This document shows, in pieces, positions 880 through 59,255 of a stretch of 64,000 nt of DNA. Source of the stretch: Rubrivirga sp. SAORIC476 (lineage in GTDB: Bacteria; Bacteroidota; Rhodothermia; Rhodothermales; Rubricoccaceae); contig NZ_MVOI01000006.1 of assembly GCF_002283555.1 (NCBI RefSeq), positions 700,040-764,039 of the forward strand. Direction: 5' to 3'. A model generated the notes under the pieces. It was not told the DNA's origin. It made no database searches and worked only from the letters and a program-made list of their open reading frames with translations. Positions within the stretch are counted from its first letter, which is position 1; the number at the start of each line of letters is the position of its first letter. The position numbers and the translations under genes were made by a program.

Positions 880-882
880 TTC

Positions 883-953
883 CGAGTTGAGAGTCCAGGG
901 TCCAGAGTTCGCCTCTGACGACCCCGAGCTCTGAACCCCGAACTCCGAACTCC
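883..953 (+). repeat. Inverted 7-bp-periodic repeat (hairpin) in the atpF-atpH spacer
   Basis: The spacer is built of degenerate heptamers. The right arm (922-953) repeats CYCYGAA-type units (CTCTGAA, CCCCGAA, CTCCGAA). The left arm (880-914) carries the complementary type (TTCCGAG, TTGAGAG, TCCAGAG). Aligning 883-910 with 926-953 by hand gives 21 Watson-Crick pairs and one G-U in 28 positions, with a 15-nt loop. The array ends one base before the atpH ATG, so any ribosome entry must take place in or beside it. Confidence 0.6.
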
Positions 954-954
954 T

Positions 955-1506: not shown

Positions 1507-1510
1507 TTCC

Positions 1511-1585
1511 TGTTGCGTATTGCGTGCCGCGTCCTCAGCGTCGCCACGCGGTACGAAACACGCAACACGTAACACGAAACACGCA
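1511..1585 (+). repeat. Heptamer array and 22-nt hairpin in the atpH-atpA spacer
   Basis: Right arm: six consecutive 7-mers at 1544-1585 of the type ACACGNA. Left arm: three complementary 7-mers at 1511-1531 (TGTTGCG, TATTGCG, TGCCGCG). Segment 1511-1532 pairs with 1546-1567 using 19 Watson-Crick pairs and one G-U out of 22, around a 13-nt loop. The array ends six bases before the atpA ATG. The word differs from that of the atpF-atpH spacer, but the 7-bp period and inverted layout are shared. Confidence 0.62.
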
Positions 1586-1591
1586 CCCCCC

Positions 1592-13693: not shown

Positions 13694-14596
13694 CTACTCC
13701 GTGCGGACGAACTCGCCTCCTTCGAAGCGAACGGGGTACGGCTCCCCGTCGAGAGGGATCAGCGTGCCGTCCACGGGGGCGTCGTCCACCCAGGTCCCGT
13801 CGAAGCGCTTTCCGTCTGAGAACGTGAAGACGCCGGTCCCGTGGCGTTCGCCGGATGCGAACTGCCCCTCGTAGCGCCGCCCATCGGGCCATGTGAACAC
13901 GCCGATGCCCTGGCGCGTGCCGGACTCGAACTGCCCTTCGTAGCGCCGCCCGTCGGGCCATGTGAAGAGGCCCTCGCCCTGGCGCTCGCCCGATACGAAC
14001 AGGCCTTCGTAGCGCCGCCCATCCGGCCAGGAGTGGACCCCGCGGCCGTGATACGCGTCGTCTTGCCAGGCTCCTTCATAGCGCCGGCCGTCGGCGAAGA
14101 GAAAGACGCCGAGGCCCCAGCGCTTCCCATTGGCGAAGGCCCCCTCGTAGCGGTTCCCGTTGGCGAACGTGTTGACCCCCTGGCCATGCAGTTTCCCGTT
14201 TCGCCAGCCACCTTCGTAGCGGTCCCCGCTCGGGTAGTCTGCTCGGCCCTGTCCGTGCGGGACGAGCGGCCCCAGCGCGTCCGGGTCGGTTTCCAGCAGG
14301 CCTCCCTGGTAGCGCCAGCCGCTGGTCCTGACGACGGATCCCTCGGCGCCCCCCTCGCCGTCGAAAGTGGCCTCGATGCGGGTCCCGGATTCGAGCGTCA
14401 GCACGCCCGAGCCGAACGGGCGTCCTTCGCGAAAGGAGCCCCGGTAGGTATGGCCGTTCGCCGTCGCCACGCCTGTCCCGTTGAGGCATGTCCCCGCGAA
14501 GCAGCCGACGGCCTCGTGCGACGTGTGTGGCTGCGAGGTCGCCGGGAGGGCGGTCGCGACGGCGACGGCGACGGCGAGGAGGAGGAGAGGACGCAT
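13694..14596 (-). CDS. Secreted MORN-repeat protein
   Basis: The 300-residue protein starts at the ATG at 14596 (an in-frame GTG six bases upstream is possible). It has a signal peptide (MRPLLLLAVAVAVATALPATSQ) and then about nine MORN repeats with the pattern GxxYEGxWxxGxxxGxGxxxxxDG, e.g. GRRYEGQFESGTRQGIGVFT, through residue 290. MORN repeats form an elongated beta-meander used in binding proteins or lipids. Here it is exported, probably periplasmic, with no catalytic domain. Repeats at about 190-265 are nearly identical to each other, suggesting recent internal duplication. Confidence 0.85.
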   Translation of the reverse strand: MRPLLLLAVAVAVATALPATSQPHTSHEAVGCFAGTCLNGTGVATANGHTYRGSFREGRPFGSGVLTLESGTRIEATFDGEGGAEGSVVRTSGWRYQGGLLETDPDALGPLVPHGQGRADYPSGDRYEGGWRNGKLHGQGVNTFANGNRYEGAFANGKRWGLGVFLFADGRRYEGAWQDDAYHGRGVHSWPDGRRYEGLFVSGERQGEGLFTWPDGRRYEGQFESGTRQGIGVFTWPDGRRYEGQFASGERHGTGVFTFSDGKRFDGTWVDDAPVDGTLIPLDGEPYPVRFEGGEFVRTE

Positions 14597-53896: not shown

Positions 53897-55705
53897 GTGC
53901 CCCCTCCCGAGACAACAACCGACTCCGCGCCGGACGCCACCCCGGACGCCACCCCCGAGGCCGCTGAGGCTCTGGAGACGACCGACCCGCCCGCCGAGGG
54001 CGAGGCGGTGGAGGAGCCCTCCCTGCGCGCCCATCTCGTGGAGCTGTGGCACCGGGTCCCGTTCGCCGTCCGCTGGGGGGCCGTCGGGGCGGTCGCGCTG
54101 CTGCTGGCGCTCGCCGTCGTGCCGCCCGTCCTCGACGCCGCCGAGGGGCCGACCGACGAGGAGCGCCTCGCCGAGGCCGCCCGCGAGCGCGCCATGTGGG
54201 CCGCTGCGCTCCGCATGGACCCGGCCGAACTGGACACCGCCATCGTCGCCAACGCGCTCGGGCCTGGCGACGCCGAGCGCGCCGACGACCGCTACGCGGA
54301 CTACTACGTCCACGAGGCCGACAGCGTGGCCTTCTCCGTTCTCGTCACGTCGAGCGACTTCGCGCCCGACCTCGCGGTGCGCCTGCCGGACGGGCGCGAG
54401 CTGGCGGCCTCGGACCTGCTCCAGACCGACACGCGCGCCGAGATCGACGGCCTCCAGGGGCCGGGCCGCTTCGAGGTCGTCGTCACGTCGCGCGACCCGC
54501 GCGCGCGCGGCGCCTACGAGCTGGCCGTGCTCCCCGCCCGCCCCGCCGACTCGCTCTACGTCGACGACGAGGCCCGCCTCGACACGCTCGGCGGCGGGGC
54601 CCGTCGCGCAGGCCGCTTCGAGCGGATGTATGGCCTCGCCACGGACACCGACCTGCCCATCGTCATCCGCGTGGTGTCGTCCGCGTTCCGTCCGCGGATC
54701 CAGTTGATCGGGCCGAACGGGCAGGTCCGCGACGCGTCGTGGTCGCTGGAGACCTCGGCCCAGGGCGACAGCCTCTTCGGCGCCGTGGCGCGCTACATGC
54801 CCGGCTGGGAGGCGCCGTACCGCCTGCTGGTCAGCTCGGAGACGCCCGGCGCGCGGGGCGCCTTCGCGCTCGACGCCCGCAGCGTCCCCATCCGCGACCT
54901 CGCCGTCAACTCGTCGGGCATCCGGCGGACGCTCGGCGACGAGAGCTGGCTCCAGGACGGCCACTACCTCGACACCTACCGCATCCGCATTCCCGAGGAC
55001 CGCAAGACGACCGTCCGCGTCACGTCCGACGCGTTCCCGCCCGCGTTCCGACTCTGGCGCATCGAGCGGCAGGCCCGCGCCGAGGTGGCCGAGGCGCTCA
55101 ACGCCGCCGGGGCCAACGCCGCCCAGTACGAGGGCACGCTGGACGCCGGCGAGTACTACGTCGAGGTGACCTCCGGCGGACGGGCCGAGGATGACGATCC
55201 GCCGGAGATCCCGCTCGGCGGGGAGTACGGGCTCGTCGTCCGTGCGGAGTCGCTGGAGCCGGCACCCGCCCCGCCCCATGCCGACGACGGCGAGGACCCG
55301 AAGCCGTCGGGCTCGAAGGTCTTCTCCACCGAAGTCCGCCGGACCGGTCAGAGCGGCGGCAGCAGCTTCGAGGTGGGCGTGACCAACGTGGCGATCTCGT
55401 ACCCCGGCAGCTCGCGCACGCGGGTCCAGCTCAGCGTCACCGTCCGCTCCATCGACTACACGGGCAACTGGGCGCCGTGGGCGAGCTTCGCCGGCCAGGC
55501 CTACGTCGTGGACGACCGGGGCCGCCGCTACACGGTGTCGCAGAACGAGAGCAGCAGCCCCTCCGGCTCGTCCGCCGAGCCGGGGACGGCGCGCCGCGGC
55601 GTGGTCGTGTTCTACCATCCGAAGGCCGTCGGCGGTCTGGAGCGCCTCGTGCTGGTGGCGTCCGTTGGTGACGAGTCGGTTACGCTTCCGATTCCGGTGC
55701 CGTAG
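53897..55705 (+). CDS. Membrane-anchored protein with PPC-like repeats
   Basis: 602 residues, GTG start. A 50-residue acidic/Pro/Thr-rich cytoplasmic head, one membrane helix (about 58-80, VRWGAVGAVALLLALAVVPP), then three repeated PPC-like beta-sandwiches (about 125-215, 220-330, 340-455), each with an SVLVTSSDFAPDLAVRLPDG-like or VRVTSDAFPPAFRLW motif. The C-terminal domain (about 475-602; VAISYPGSSRTRVQLSVTVR) resembles DUF4352-type beta folds. No catalytic motif. Perhaps an envelope sensor or scaffold; function unknown. Confidence 0.7.
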   Translation: MPPPETTTDSAPDATPDATPEAAEALETTDPPAEGEAVEEPSLRAHLVELWHRVPFAVRWGAVGAVALLLALAVVPPVLDAAEGPTDEERLAEAARERAMWAAALRMDPAELDTAIVANALGPGDAERADDRYADYYVHEADSVAFSVLVTSSDFAPDLAVRLPDGRELAASDLLQTDTRAEIDGLQGPGRFEVVVTSRDPRARGAYELAVLPARPADSLYVDDEARLDTLGGGARRAGRFERMYGLATDTDLPIVIRVVSSAFRPRIQLIGPNGQVRDASWSLETSAQGDSLFGAVARYMPGWEAPYRLLVSSETPGARGAFALDARSVPIRDLAVNSSGIRRTLGDESWLQDGHYLDTYRIRIPEDRKTTVRVTSDAFPPAFRLWRIERQARAEVAEALNAAGANAAQYEGTLDAGEYYVEVTSGGRAEDDDPPEIPLGGEYGLVVRAESLEPAPAPPHADDGEDPKPSGSKVFSTEVRRTGQSGGSSFEVGVTNVAISYPGSSRTRVQLSVTVRSIDYTGNWAPWASFAGQAYVVDDRGRRYTVSQNESSSPSGSSAEPGTARRGVVVFYHPKAVGGLERLVLVASVGDESVTLPIPVP

Positions 55706-55782
55706 CGGGTACTACGCTCGCGAGGGGGAGGGGACGGGTAGAGGGAAATCCGGTGGCACCCGGTGCCCGAGGTGGACATCTT

Positions 55783-55845
55783 CTCAGTCCTCAGTCCTCA
55801 GTCCTCAGTCCTCAGTCCTCAGTCCTCAGTCCTCAATCCTCAGTC
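55783..55845 (+). repeat. Nine-unit heptamer tandem array upstream of the SDR gene
   Basis: Nine head-to-tail copies of CTCAGTC (63 bp; the eighth reads CTCAATC), ending 3 bp before the SDR ATG. All three plus-strand frames are open through the array. Slippage by one unit would shift any upstream start by one frame and change leader length by 7 nt. Confidence 0.9.
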
Positions 55846-55848
55846 TCC

Positions 55849-56547
55849 ATGTCCCTCGTTCTCGTCACCGGTGCCTCCCGTGGGATCGGCGCGGCCGTCG
55901 CCGAGGCGTTCGCGGCGCGCGGCGACCGCCTCGCCCTCGTCGCCCGTGATGCCGACGCGCTGGCCGAGGTCGCCCGCCGCTGTGCCGAGGCGGGCGGGGA
56001 CGCGCGGGTGTTCGTGTGCGACGTGACCGACGGCGCGGCCGTCGACGCGCTGGCCGCCTCGGTGCGCGACTGGGCCGGGACGCCGGACGTGGTGGTCAAC
56101 AACGCCGGGCTGTTCGAACCCGGCGGGATCCTGGAGACCTCGCCGGAGGCCTTCCGGCGACAGATGGAGGTCAACGTCGTCAGCGCCTTCCTCGTGACGC
56201 GTGCCTTCCTCGCCGCGATGCGGGCGCGCGGCTCCGGGCGCATCCTGATGATGGGCTCCGTCGCGTCGATCCGCGGCTACCCCGGCGGCGCGGCGTACGG
56301 CGCGGCCAAACACGCGCTGCTCGGGCTGGCCCGGTCGGTCCGCCAGGAGATGCTGGGCACCGGCGTCTCGGTGACGACCCTCCTACCCGGCGCCACGCGC
56401 ACCGGCTCCTGGGACGGCACCGATTTGCCCGACGACCGCTTCATGCCGCCCGAGGACATCGCACGCGTCGCGGTCGAGGTCGCGACGCTGTCCGGGCGGA
56501 CGGTCGTCGAGGAGGTCCTGCTCCGGCCGGACGCGGGGGACATCTAG
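55849..56547 (+). CDS. Short-chain dehydrogenase/reductase
   Basis: 232-residue classical SDR. Cofactor motif TGASRGIG (7-14), NNAG at about 84-87, and catalytic Ser/Tyr/Lys in MMGSVASI and YGAAK (about 148-152). Arg/Asp pattern after strand 2 (VARDADAL) suits NADP(H). It oxidises or reduces a small alcohol or ketone; the substrate is unknown. Start taken as the ATG directly after the heptamer array; an in-frame upstream ATG at 55753 would translate the array into a 32-residue low-complexity leader. Followed by a small GNAT gene. Confidence 0.9.
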   Translation: MSLVLVTGASRGIGAAVAEAFAARGDRLALVARDADALAEVARRCAEAGGDARVFVCDVTDGAAVDALAASVRDWAGTPDVVVNNAGLFEPGGILETSPEAFRRQMEVNVVSAFLVTRAFLAAMRARGSGRILMMGSVASIRGYPGGAAYGAAKHALLGLARSVRQEMLGTGVSVTTLLPGATRTGSWDGTDLPDDRFMPPEDIARVAVEVATLSGRTVVEEVLLRPDAGDI

Positions 56548-56947: not shown

Positions 56948-57268
56948 TTACGAGCAGCCCACGGGGCCGCGCCGCGCGTCGCGGACGTCCTCACGTCGGT
57001 CGCGCCGGTCCTCGGCGCGGTCGCGGACATCCTCACGCCGGTCGCGGCGGTCTTCGAGCCGGTCGAGCACGCCCCCTCGGTAGCGCGCGTCGCGGACGTC
57101 CTCGCGCCGGTCGCGGCGGTCTTCGGCGCGGTCGCGGACATCTTCGCGGCGGTCGCGGACCTGCTCGGCGCAATCCGCGAGGACGCGGGCGGCGCGGGTG
57201 GGGGCACGCTGCGCGGAGGCGGGCAGCGCGACGAGAACGAGGAGCAGGGCGGGGAGGAGGAGGCGCAT
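56948..57268 (-). CDS. Secreted Arg/Asp-repeat protein
   Basis: 106 residues, signal peptide (MRLLLPALLLVLVALPASAQ). The mature part is almost only R, D, E, V and A in a near-regular alternation; the block RREDVRDRAEDRRDRREDV occurs twice, about 34 residues apart, with a short YRGGVLDRLED linker. It should form a long charged single helix. Ends in a Cys-containing tail (GPVGCS), with another Cys near residue 33. Function unknown; similar charged repeats occur in small envelope proteins of Bacteroidota. Downstream of the CocE-like gene on the same strand. Confidence 0.7.
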   Translation of the reverse strand: MRLLLPALLLVLVALPASAQRAPTRAARVLADCAEQVRDRREDVRDRAEDRRDRREDVRDARYRGGVLDRLEDRRDRREDVRDRAEDRRDRREDVRDARRGPVGCS

Positions 57269-57372
57269 GGCCGGAGTCAGTTGGTGAGCCTCCAAGAGAC
57301 GACGCCCCCTGTCGCGCCCGATCACGGCGCGTCGTCGGCTCTGCGTCCGATCCGTGGCGGATGTGTGTCGGC

Positions 57373-57394
57373 CGCCTCGGTGCCGAGGCGGGCC
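57373..57394. repeat. Dispersed palindrome, copy 9
   Basis: CGCCTCGGTGCCGAGGCGGGCC, containing the palindrome CGCCTCGG..CCGAGGCG. It lies between the CocE-like stop and the Arg/Asp-repeat gene, 20 nt past the stop. Confidence 0.55.
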
Positions 57395-57413
57395 GTATCG
57401 CGTGCGTCGGTCC

Positions 57414-59255
57414 TTACTCCAGCACGCGGACGGACAGGTGCGACGGGTGCTCCGGCGACACAAACACGCGGTGCGTCGCGGCCTGGAAGTCCTCCTCGGT
57501 GGCCTCGTGGATGGGCATGAACCGCTGCGGGTTGCGGTCCACCATCGGGAACCACGTGCTCTGGATCTGGACCATCATCCGGTGGCCGCGGCGGAACGTG
57601 TGGGCCACGTCCTGCATGTCGAACGTCACCTCGGTCACCTCGCCGGGCACGAACGGGACCGGGGCTGAGAAGTCCTCCCGGAACTTGCCCCGCATCACCT
57701 CGCCGCGAACGAGCTGCTGGAAGTGGCCCATCGGGACCGAGCAGTCGCCGTCGGGCAACTCGCACGCGGCGTCGCCGGGGTACACGTCGATCAGCTTGAC
57801 GATGAAGTCGGCATCGGTGCCGGTGACGGTCACGAACAGCGTTGCGCCGAGGTCGCCGGTCAGCGTCACGTCCTCCTCCAGCACGGGCGATTCGAACACG
57901 AGCACGTCCGGGCGGGTGCTCGCGAAGCGCTGGTCTTGCGTCACGTAGCGGTCGTCCCGGCGGACGACGATCTGGGGCGTGTGGGGGACGGGCTTGAAGG
58001 GGTCCGAGACGTACTCCGCGAACAGGCCCGCCTCGGTGGGGGCGTCGGAGCCCAGCCCGCCGCCGGGCTGGAGGTAGAGGCTCTGCTCGCGCGAGGCGCG
58101 GGGCGGCCACGCGTCGAAGAAGCGCCACTGGTCGGCCCCGGTGACGAAGACGGACGCCTCGTGGAGGTCGGGGTCGCCGTCGCCCTTGAGGTGGGCGTCG
58201 AAGAAGCGGGCCTCCAGGTTCTCGCGGTAGAAGACGGAGGTGTTCTGGCCGAACCAGAGGTCGCCGTAGCGGTCGCCGTCGCCGCGCGCCCAGCCGCCGT
58301 GCCACCACGGCCCCATCACGAGGTAGGACTCGGCGTCGGTCTCGTCCTGGATCGTGTGGTAGGTCTTGAGCGGGCCGTAGAGGTCCTGCGCGTCGAACCA
58401 GCCGCCGGTGACGAGCACGGCCGGGCGGACATCACGGAGGTGGGGCAGCGGCGTCCGCGCCTGCCAGTAGGCGTCGTAGGTGTCGTGCGTCAGGATCTCC
58501 TGCCAGAGGTCGTTGGTGCCGCCGAAGAAGCGGTCGTTCACCTCGCCCAGCGGCCCCAGGTCCTGGTACCAGCGGACGCCGTCGGGCGTGCCGTAGTCGC
58601 TGTAGCTGGGCTCGCGCTCGGTCGTCGGCTCGGGGCGCGGGACGCCGTACGACGAGACGAAGCTGAAGGTCGCCTGGAGCTGGAAGGCGCCGTTGTGTCG
58701 GCGGTCGTCGCCCAGGAACCAGTCGGTCACGGGCGCCTGCGGCGAGACGGCCTTGACGGCCGGGTGTGCGTCGATGAGCGCGTGCGTGGCGTAGAAGCCG
58801 GGCGCCGAGATCCCCCAGACGCCCACGCTCCCGTTGTTGGGGGTGTTCGCCAGCAGCCACGCGACCGTGTCGTAGGCGTCGGAGCTCTCGTCGATGTCGC
58901 GCGGCCCCTTGTCCGGGTTGTGGGGACGGACGGCGACGAACTCGCCCTCGGACATCAGCTTGCCGCGCACGTCCTGGTACACGACGATGTAGCCGTCGCG
59001 CATGAGCCGGTCCGACGGGCCCAGGCTGGACCGGTAGGCGTCCGCGCCGTACGGCCCGACGCCGTAGGGCGTCCGCTGGAGCAGGATCGGGTGCGGGCCG
59101 GGCGCCTTCGGGACGTAGATGGACGTGAACAGGCGGACGCCGTCGCGCATCGGCACCATCGCCTCGGTCTTGTCGTAGTGCTGGCGGACCCAGTCGGCCT
59201 GGGCGTCGGCGGGGGCGGCCATGAGGAGGAGGGCGAGGAGCGGAGCGAGGCGCAT
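57414..59255 (-). CDS. CocE/NonD (S15) family alpha/beta hydrolase
   Basis: 613 residues, signal peptide (MRLAPLLALLLMAAPADAQ). Peptidase S15 N-domain: AMVPMRDGVRLFTSIYVPK, TPYGVGPYG, YQDVRGKLMSEGEF, nucleophile Ser in VGVWGISAPGFYATHALID (about 150; the usual GxSYxG Tyr is Ala here), Asp in TGGWFDAQDLYG and His in GPWWHGGWARGD. A C-terminal galactose-binding-like jelly roll follows (about 430-613, TGDLGATLFVTVTGTDADF). Family members are acyl hydrolases, from cocaine esterase to X-Pro dipeptidyl-peptidase. Substrate unknown. Confidence 0.9.
   Translation of the reverse strand: MRLAPLLALLLMAAPADAQADWVRQHYDKTEAMVPMRDGVRLFTSIYVPKAPGPHPILLQRTPYGVGPYGADAYRSSLGPSDRLMRDGYIVVYQDVRGKLMSEGEFVAVRPHNPDKGPRDIDESSDAYDTVAWLLANTPNNGSVGVWGISAPGFYATHALIDAHPAVKAVSPQAPVTDWFLGDDRRHNGAFQLQATFSFVSSYGVPRPEPTTEREPSYSDYGTPDGVRWYQDLGPLGEVNDRFFGGTNDLWQEILTHDTYDAYWQARTPLPHLRDVRPAVLVTGGWFDAQDLYGPLKTYHTIQDETDAESYLVMGPWWHGGWARGDGDRYGDLWFGQNTSVFYRENLEARFFDAHLKGDGDPDLHEASVFVTGADQWRFFDAWPPRASREQSLYLQPGGGLGSDAPTEAGLFAEYVSDPFKPVPHTPQIVVRRDDRYVTQDQRFASTRPDVLVFESPVLEEDVTLTGDLGATLFVTVTGTDADFIVKLIDVYPGDAACELPDGDCSVPMGHFQQLVRGEVMRGKFREDFSAPVPFVPGEVTEVTFDMQDVAHTFRRGHRMMVQIQSTWFPMVDRNPQRFMPIHEATEEDFQAATHRVFVSPEHPSHLSVRVLE

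Follow-up and report, generated by a model that had tools for sequence, protein, structure and literature searches.

A short-chain dehydrogenase (SDR) gene of Rubrivirga sp. SAORIC476 is preceded, almost at its start codon, by a tandem array of a 7-nt unit, which raises the question of whether the array is a switch, a leader, or part of the protein. We analyzed the 64,000-nt stretch of DNA that holds the array (the window) together with samples of other genomes. Read directly, the array consists of nine head-to-tail heptamers, (CTCAGTC)7-CTCAATC-CTCAGTC, with unit 8 as the variant, and a TCC (3 nt) separates its end from the SDR ATG. TRF returned period 7, 9.0 copies, 96% match, and a score of 119. 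The first-pass annotation had described nine units, eight perfect and one variant, ending 3 bp before the ATG, and both analyses confirmed this; the span that it gave, 55783-55851, has the right start and takes in the TCC and the ATG as well. The array is intergenic, lying between the upstream stop codon at 55705 and the conserved SDR start.

The longest exact lag-7 run in the window comprised 46 matched bases; at lags 4, 5, 8, 10, 11, and 13 the longest exact runs were 7-11, and in 30 mononucleotide shuffles of the window the maximum was 11. The array cannot have arisen by chance. Three consecutive CTCAGTC units occur at a single site in the 4.48-Mb genome, and heptamers other than CTCAGTC are present elsewhere in it.

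Table 1. Coordinates of the features discussed (positions in the window)
Feature	Position	Strand	Remark
atpF (assumed)-atpH spacer, inverted heptamers	880..954	+	G side after stop, C side before ATG
atpH-atpA spacer, inverted heptamers	1507..1591	+	TGTTGCG.. / ..CGCAACA
Upstream ORF, 602 aa	53897..55705	+	no Pfam or NCBIfam match
Stop-to-start spacer with array	55706..55848	+	halves not complementary
G-rich stretch past upstream stop	55720..55746	+	pairs with array in predicted fold; fold no better than shuffles
In-frame upstream GTG	55753..55755	+	extension through array not common to other matched genes
Heptamer array	55783..55845	+	C-rich strand is sense for the SDR gene
SDR gene, 232 aa	55849..56547	+	Pfam adh_short 5.2e-50; conserved start codon

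The start of the SDR gene

ORF reading bore out an earlier remark that the array is open in all three forward frames, each of which reads an LSPQSSV repeat. The in-frame upstream start at 55753, previously named as an ATG, is a GTG. The identification of the downstream gene as an SDR agrees with its Pfam match (Table 1). We compared the starts of 18 SDR genes, the window's own and the 17 best matches of relatives; loci L033 and L034, with weaker, paralogue-level matches, were omitted. An ATG or GTG was present within one codon of the 55849 position in 17 of the 18 genes, the window included. Besides the window, eight genes had an ATG or GTG at the first codon of the query, seven an ATG one codon later, and one an ATG one codon earlier; the gene of G012 had no start codon at the aligned position. 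With a conserved start on the 3' side of the array and an upstream extension that the other matched genes lack, the array would be a leader and neither coding sequence nor a frame switch, and because of that conserved start slippage should leave the SDR frame untouched, provided that this start is used. The idea of a frame switch was rejected on the same grounds, the SDR start being conserved and 3' of the array. Judged by this comparison, the array is best described as an untranslated leader segment and not a frame switch. The word "leader" in the first-pass annotation thus stands, the array being non-coding 5' sequence adjoining a conserved start codon, and its proposal of phase variation by frame does not.

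At the same site in a same-genus genome (G003), where the SDR gene has a similar upstream gene 3' end and a similar downstream gene (compared by eye), the leader is irregular and C-rich (...CGTCTCCCTCCACCGTTTCCACTCCTCC ACC ATG), without the array. The SDR leader of a second same-genus genome (G002) has a degenerate period of 7 (GTACCCG ATACCTC GCACCCC GCATCC), and in G008 CTTCTCC-type heptamers reach up to the start. Among 40 relatives, the window's own genome (G000) included, TCCTCARTCCTCARTCCTC was found in G000 and G008 only.

C-rich leaders and the predicted effect of unit number

Bases 1-20 before the called starts of G000 contain about 50% C and about 20% G (clear-heptamer spacers excluded), and no matching C/G skew was present after the stops of G000. 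Shine-Dalgarno (SD)-like words occurred in 8 of 244 leaders, about chance level by a rough base-composition estimate, and 108 of 244 leaders were at least 70% pyrimidine. Lack of SD use is known in Bacteroidetes, as stated in passages of PMC6847099. C-rich leaders without an SD excess are the local norm, and hence a C-rich array would be a tolerated leader.

We folded the full spacer plus the gene start with 3 to 13 units and computed the cost of opening positions -18 to +15. The predicted cost was 20.0 kcal/mol at 3 units, 8.6 at 8, and 7.8-8.1 at 9-13, and the start region stayed mostly paired in the full-spacer fold (unpaired fraction 0.29 at every unit number tried). For a transcript beginning at the array, the predicted cost was 2.1-2.2 for 5 to 13 units. 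Because the cost hardly varies over 8 to 13 units, gaining or losing one unit at a count near nine is predicted to have little effect on it.

The half-to-half complementarity score of the SDR spacer was below that of all 2000 shuffles, so this is not an inverted heptamer spacer, and its predicted fold was ordinary (z 0.79); a significant hairpin at the SDR leader was rejected on these two results. No known RNA family was recognised: the sole match, a sub-threshold snoRNA at 17.4 bits against a gathering score of 49, was rejected. Simple scans recognised no promoter overlapping the array.

Period-seven repeats at gene edges

Self-similar segments were counted per lag, at 22 of 28 matches, in samples from four genomes: 464 kb of G000, the window among them, 400 kb from each of G003 and G004, and 263 kb from G008. 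Gene calls came from a codon-usage script. Lag-7 segments numbered 3, 1, 10, and 27 in G000, G003, G004, and G008, with 3, 1, 9, and 25 of them intergenic; each of the lags 4, 5, 8, 10, 11, and 13 gave 0, 0-1, 0, and 0-2 (the 2 at lag 8), and lag 14, a harmonic, tracked lag 7. The units were CCGAACT, CGAAACA, and CTCAGTC in G000, CCCTCAT, CCCCAGT, and CCCAGAA in G004, and TCCGATA, CCCTTCA, and CCTCCGT in G008. The order-level genome G019 had 8 intergenic lag-7 segments versus 2 at lag 8, G007 had 4 versus 1 control, and Blastocatellia SSF51 (G040), in stretches picked around arrays, had 116 versus at most 1. The CTCAGTC array belongs to a class of intergenic repeats with period 7 that is found lineage-wide at gene edges.

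A longer array, of about 14 CCGAACT units, adjoins another called start codon in the G000 genome (L190:13472-13579). In G008, different period-7 arrays are stacked in one intergenic region (L239, contig 188, 5786-6224), with G-rich units on the left and C-rich units on the right. The order-level relative G016 is rich in CCTCACT arrays: a degenerate pattern matched 35 times in forward and 82 times in reverse orientation.

Polarity was scored in four genomes for segments ending at most 15 nt from a called gene edge, at threshold 20. At all 12 starts and at all 12 stops the C-rich strand led into the coding sequence; with the distance widened to 30 nt it did so at 12/12 and 16/17. At the looser threshold of 19 the counts were 15/17 starts and 15/15 stops within 15 nt, and 18/20 and 19/20 within 30 nt. 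Within 30 nt, the same polarity was observed at 30/31 starts and 60/63 stops of G040, at 5/5 starts and 5/7 stops of G019, and at both starts of G007, where no stops lay within that distance. CCTCAGT arrays at 54 loci of other genomes (80 listed minus 26 of SSF51; 38 stretches without shown titles were dropped) followed it at 11/13 starts and 10/14 stops by cruder ORF calls; since ACTGAGG contains TGA, such arrays can themselves end a reverse-strand ORF, which could inflate stop-side closeness for CCTCAGT, not the order of arms or the stops beside other units. Where a spacer contained both kinds of arm, G-then-C was the order in 36 G040 spacers and in 7 from the other sampled genomes; the single C-then-G spacer was in G040. 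These counts exclude an exploratory survey of 157 arrays, which relied on longest-ORF gene calls and took in SSF51 as well as viral contigs. The same polarity is reported for two other heptamers in passages of Rehm 2015 (PMC4692102).

We also scored the complementarity of spacer halves against a swap control, in which halves were exchanged with random partners within the same spacer class and a score above the 99% level was required. Tandem spacers exceeded it in 16/71 cases in G008, 5/143 in G000, 3/110 in G003, 2/125 in G004, 2/101 in G007, 4/118 in G019, and 2/95 in G040; the divergent counts, in the same order, were 0/12, 1/32, 1/26, 0/25, 0/26, 0/26, and 0/12. A first run of the random-partner test gave 18/71 for G008 and 1/125 for G004. 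Because many G040 spacers have one unit in common, the swap control is strict for that genome; when shuffles served as the control, 30/95 tandem, 13/26 convergent, and 0/12 divergent G040 spacers exceeded the 99% level. Convergent matches in G000 (4/23) resemble ordinary terminator hairpins, not heptamers. A universal stop-to-start complementarity was rejected as true only in part, being strong in G008 and weak elsewhere.

Both atp spacers of the window begin with G-side heptamers, placed at the stop codon or close to it, and finish at the start codon with C-side heptamers complementary to them. The complementarity of the halves exceeds that of shuffled spacers, of which 1 and 2 in 2000 scored as well. 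The genes atpH and atpA were named by TIGR01145 and TIGR00962, above cut-off, and the gene upstream of atpH was taken as atpF from its position only. Among atp spacers of at least 30 nt in eight genomes of the family, 9 of 15 had complementary halves (at most 5 of 500 shuffles), as did 2 of 8 outside the family; one shorter spacer in the family, and two shorter or unrecognised ones outside, were unscored. The unit of the atpH-atpA spacer differs by species: TGTTGCG in G000, GGTTAGTAGTTAG in G008, and TATTGCGTACTGCG in G007. A search of the open-licence literature found no description of inverted, species-specific heptamer spacers, which look like a new variant beyond the published heptamer leaders and polarity. 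Two stop-to-start stems of G008 (L235:8004-8088 and L237:8688-8765) have a period of 8, not 7.

A 24-base CCTCAGT probe matched at least 118 stretches in genome_contigs, and among the matches listed were, by record title, Acidobacteria, Cyanobacteria, Chloroflexi, Planctomycetes, Gemmatimonadetes, Proteobacteria, and others. When viral contigs were probed with 24-base words, CCTCAGT and its reversal CCTGACT each matched 20 stretches, two scrambled words matched 1 and 5, and CCCCAGT matched 0; a phylum search of 395 genomes found three consecutive CCTCAGT units in 7 and the reversed control in 5. These control counts weaken the notion of CCTCAGT as a privileged universal signal. In SSF51, which has 644 pattern matches in its genome, many intergenic regions (L035, other JAIBAN loci, and L272-L291) are bracketed by inverted CCTCAGT arrays, often 30 bp long. 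Indeed, 30 is the commonest exact array length both in SSF51 (18/66 arrays) and at the 54 other loci (13/58).

Explanations and known heptamer systems

With moderate confidence, we regard the array as an untranslated leader segment that arose by 7-nt expansion, belongs to the heptameric spacer class, is tolerated as a C-rich leader, and is unlikely to be a switch. A 7-nt unit would have expanded in the stop-to-start spacer, and copying or slippage with a 7-nt step would build such arrays at the edges of coding sequences; the geometry is observed and the mechanism is putative. In these arrays the G-rich strand points outward from the coding sequence, and its C-rich partner runs into it. At the SDR site the C-rich strand is the mRNA leader. 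The array may be tolerated, and perhaps favoured, because the genes of this genome start behind C-rich, G-poor, SD-poor leaders. Extra units could act as redundant pairing partners for the upstream G-rich stretch, so that the start codon would be freed at a lower predicted cost; this predicted effect is nearly saturated at about 8 units. The number of units probably drifts over evolution, and an on/off switch for the SDR gene is unlikely. Several points go against this reading: the SDR spacer is not inverted, by half-to-half score and fold alike; most of the start region remains paired when the full spacer is folded; the 7-nt-adding process is hypothetical, none having been recognised in the analysis; and polarity has exceptions at looser thresholds and is weaker elsewhere (10/14 stops at the CCTCAGT loci and 5/7 in G019).

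A wider proposal, which we advance only tentatively, is that gaps between genes are rewritten by 7-nt additions outward from the edges of coding sequences, with the G-rich strand leading and one unit often used at the two edges alike. The process would act in this lineage and more strongly in some unrelated ones, and the CTCAGTC array would be a case in which it worked from one side. Such rewriting would turn a spacer into an inverted heptamer repeat and bring the stop codon beside the next start codon. As the units of the atp spacers differ by species, period, polarity, and fold would be kept, and not sequence. For the CTCAGTC array alone the stakes are small, as it is a gene leader and probably not a switch. 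Two observations make it testable whether a DNA process with a 7-nt step acts at gene edges and whether stop-to-start stems couple translation: a polarity rule that applies to starts as well as stops, across different units and distant phyla, and inverted heptamers that vary by species at orthologous spacers of ATP synthase, an essential operon.

Part of this is already in print for other units, namely heptamer leaders in passages of MacGregor 2015 (PMC4679880) and polarity in those of Rehm 2015. In most of the bacterial genomes that Mrazek et al. 2007 surveyed (cited via PMC4679880), heptamers are preferred among long-unit repeats, a preference without an accepted reason. The heptamers that Rehm describes in Xanthomonas and Nostoc, GGGAATC and GGGGA(C/T)T, form G-quadruplexes and have the polarity seen here (at all 12 starts and all 12 stops within 15 nt), with G antisense upstream of starts and sense after stops; they share the preference for spacers with a stop. 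The Nostoc unit, CCCCAGT/CCCCAAT on its C strand, is one letter off CCTCAGT/CCTCAAT. Those heptamers carry GGG or GGGG tracts (PMC4692102), whereas GGACTGA, antisense to CTCAGTC, has GG only and falls short of a tract of three Gs, so a strong quadruplex is not expected from it.

A neutral slippage product without a role, grown from a 7-nt duplication in an unconstrained spacer, appears unlikely. It would account for the absence of the array at the same-genus orthologous site in G003 and, as rapid turnover, for the species-specific units at orthologous atp spacers, and Mrazek et al. 2007 (via PMC4679880) proposed that a preference for 7-nt units is linked to the polymerase. It does not predict the strict polarity, the tight abutment to coding-sequence edges, or the complementary halves of the atp spacers.

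We consider it equally unlikely that the array is a phase-variable contingency repeat, in which slippage would alter the unit number and so SDR expression via promoter spacing or leader length. Nine near-perfect units between an upstream stop and a start are of a length at which slippage is plausible, and a 7-bp tandem repeat in the promoter/5' UTR of one gene, hmw1A of Haemophilus influenzae, tunes expression of that adhesin as its unit number varies (passages of PMC8262952). There the promoters overlap the array; here none was recognised, and the gene encodes an SDR oxidoreductase, not a surface structure or a host-interaction product (a usual, non-obligatory trait of genes with contingency repeats). 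The conserved start 3' of the array leaves no frame effect, and little change is predicted from 8 to 13 units. The unit number was read from one assembly, and the nearest species lacks the array.

It seems quite improbable that the array is a specific regulatory leader, in which a protein or the ribosome (e.g., S1) would recognise a repeated word beside the start, as MacGregor proposed for the TAACTGA repeats of Beggiatoaceae. The two systems are alike in having 7-nt tandem units directly 5' of starts, oriented toward the gene, in genomes with few SD sites and before genes of many functions. The TAACTGA repeats mostly end within several nt of starts (PMC4679880), and the present array, which stops 3 nt short of the ATG, lies where a ribosome-binding site would be. 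The unit itself differs, and TAACTGA is one word at 169 sites, whereas the CTCAGTC array occurs once, leaving no regulon for that word, and other genes and spacers have other heptamers. Here, moreover, some spacers are inverted pairs, and period-7 arrays also abut stop codons with the same polarity, which would not be expected of a signal specific to starts.

Translation of the array from GTG 55753, placing the LSPQSSV repeat at the N-terminus, is very improbable: the frame is open from that codon through the SDR gene, but 17 of 18 matched genes start within one codon of 55849 and the extension is not shared.

The STRR heptamers of Calothrix, attributed to Mazel 1990, are reportedly dispersed words in many copies. 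The CTCAGTC array resembles them, and the class of long SSRs, in being heptameric, tandem beyond chance, and intergenic; it differs in that the same word is not dispersed. We file it under the broad class of heptamer repeats and not under the dispersed single-word STRR family. Tandem heptanucleotides of Calothrix are also mentioned in passages of PMC4692102.

The window contains other tandem repeats. Repeats of 21/42 bp at 56973-57171 lie within a reverse-strand ORF (56948-57463) and encode an Arg/Asp-rich repeat, and three 69-bp tandem repeats (23 codons) at 13824-14029 probably belong to a reverse-strand repeat protein.
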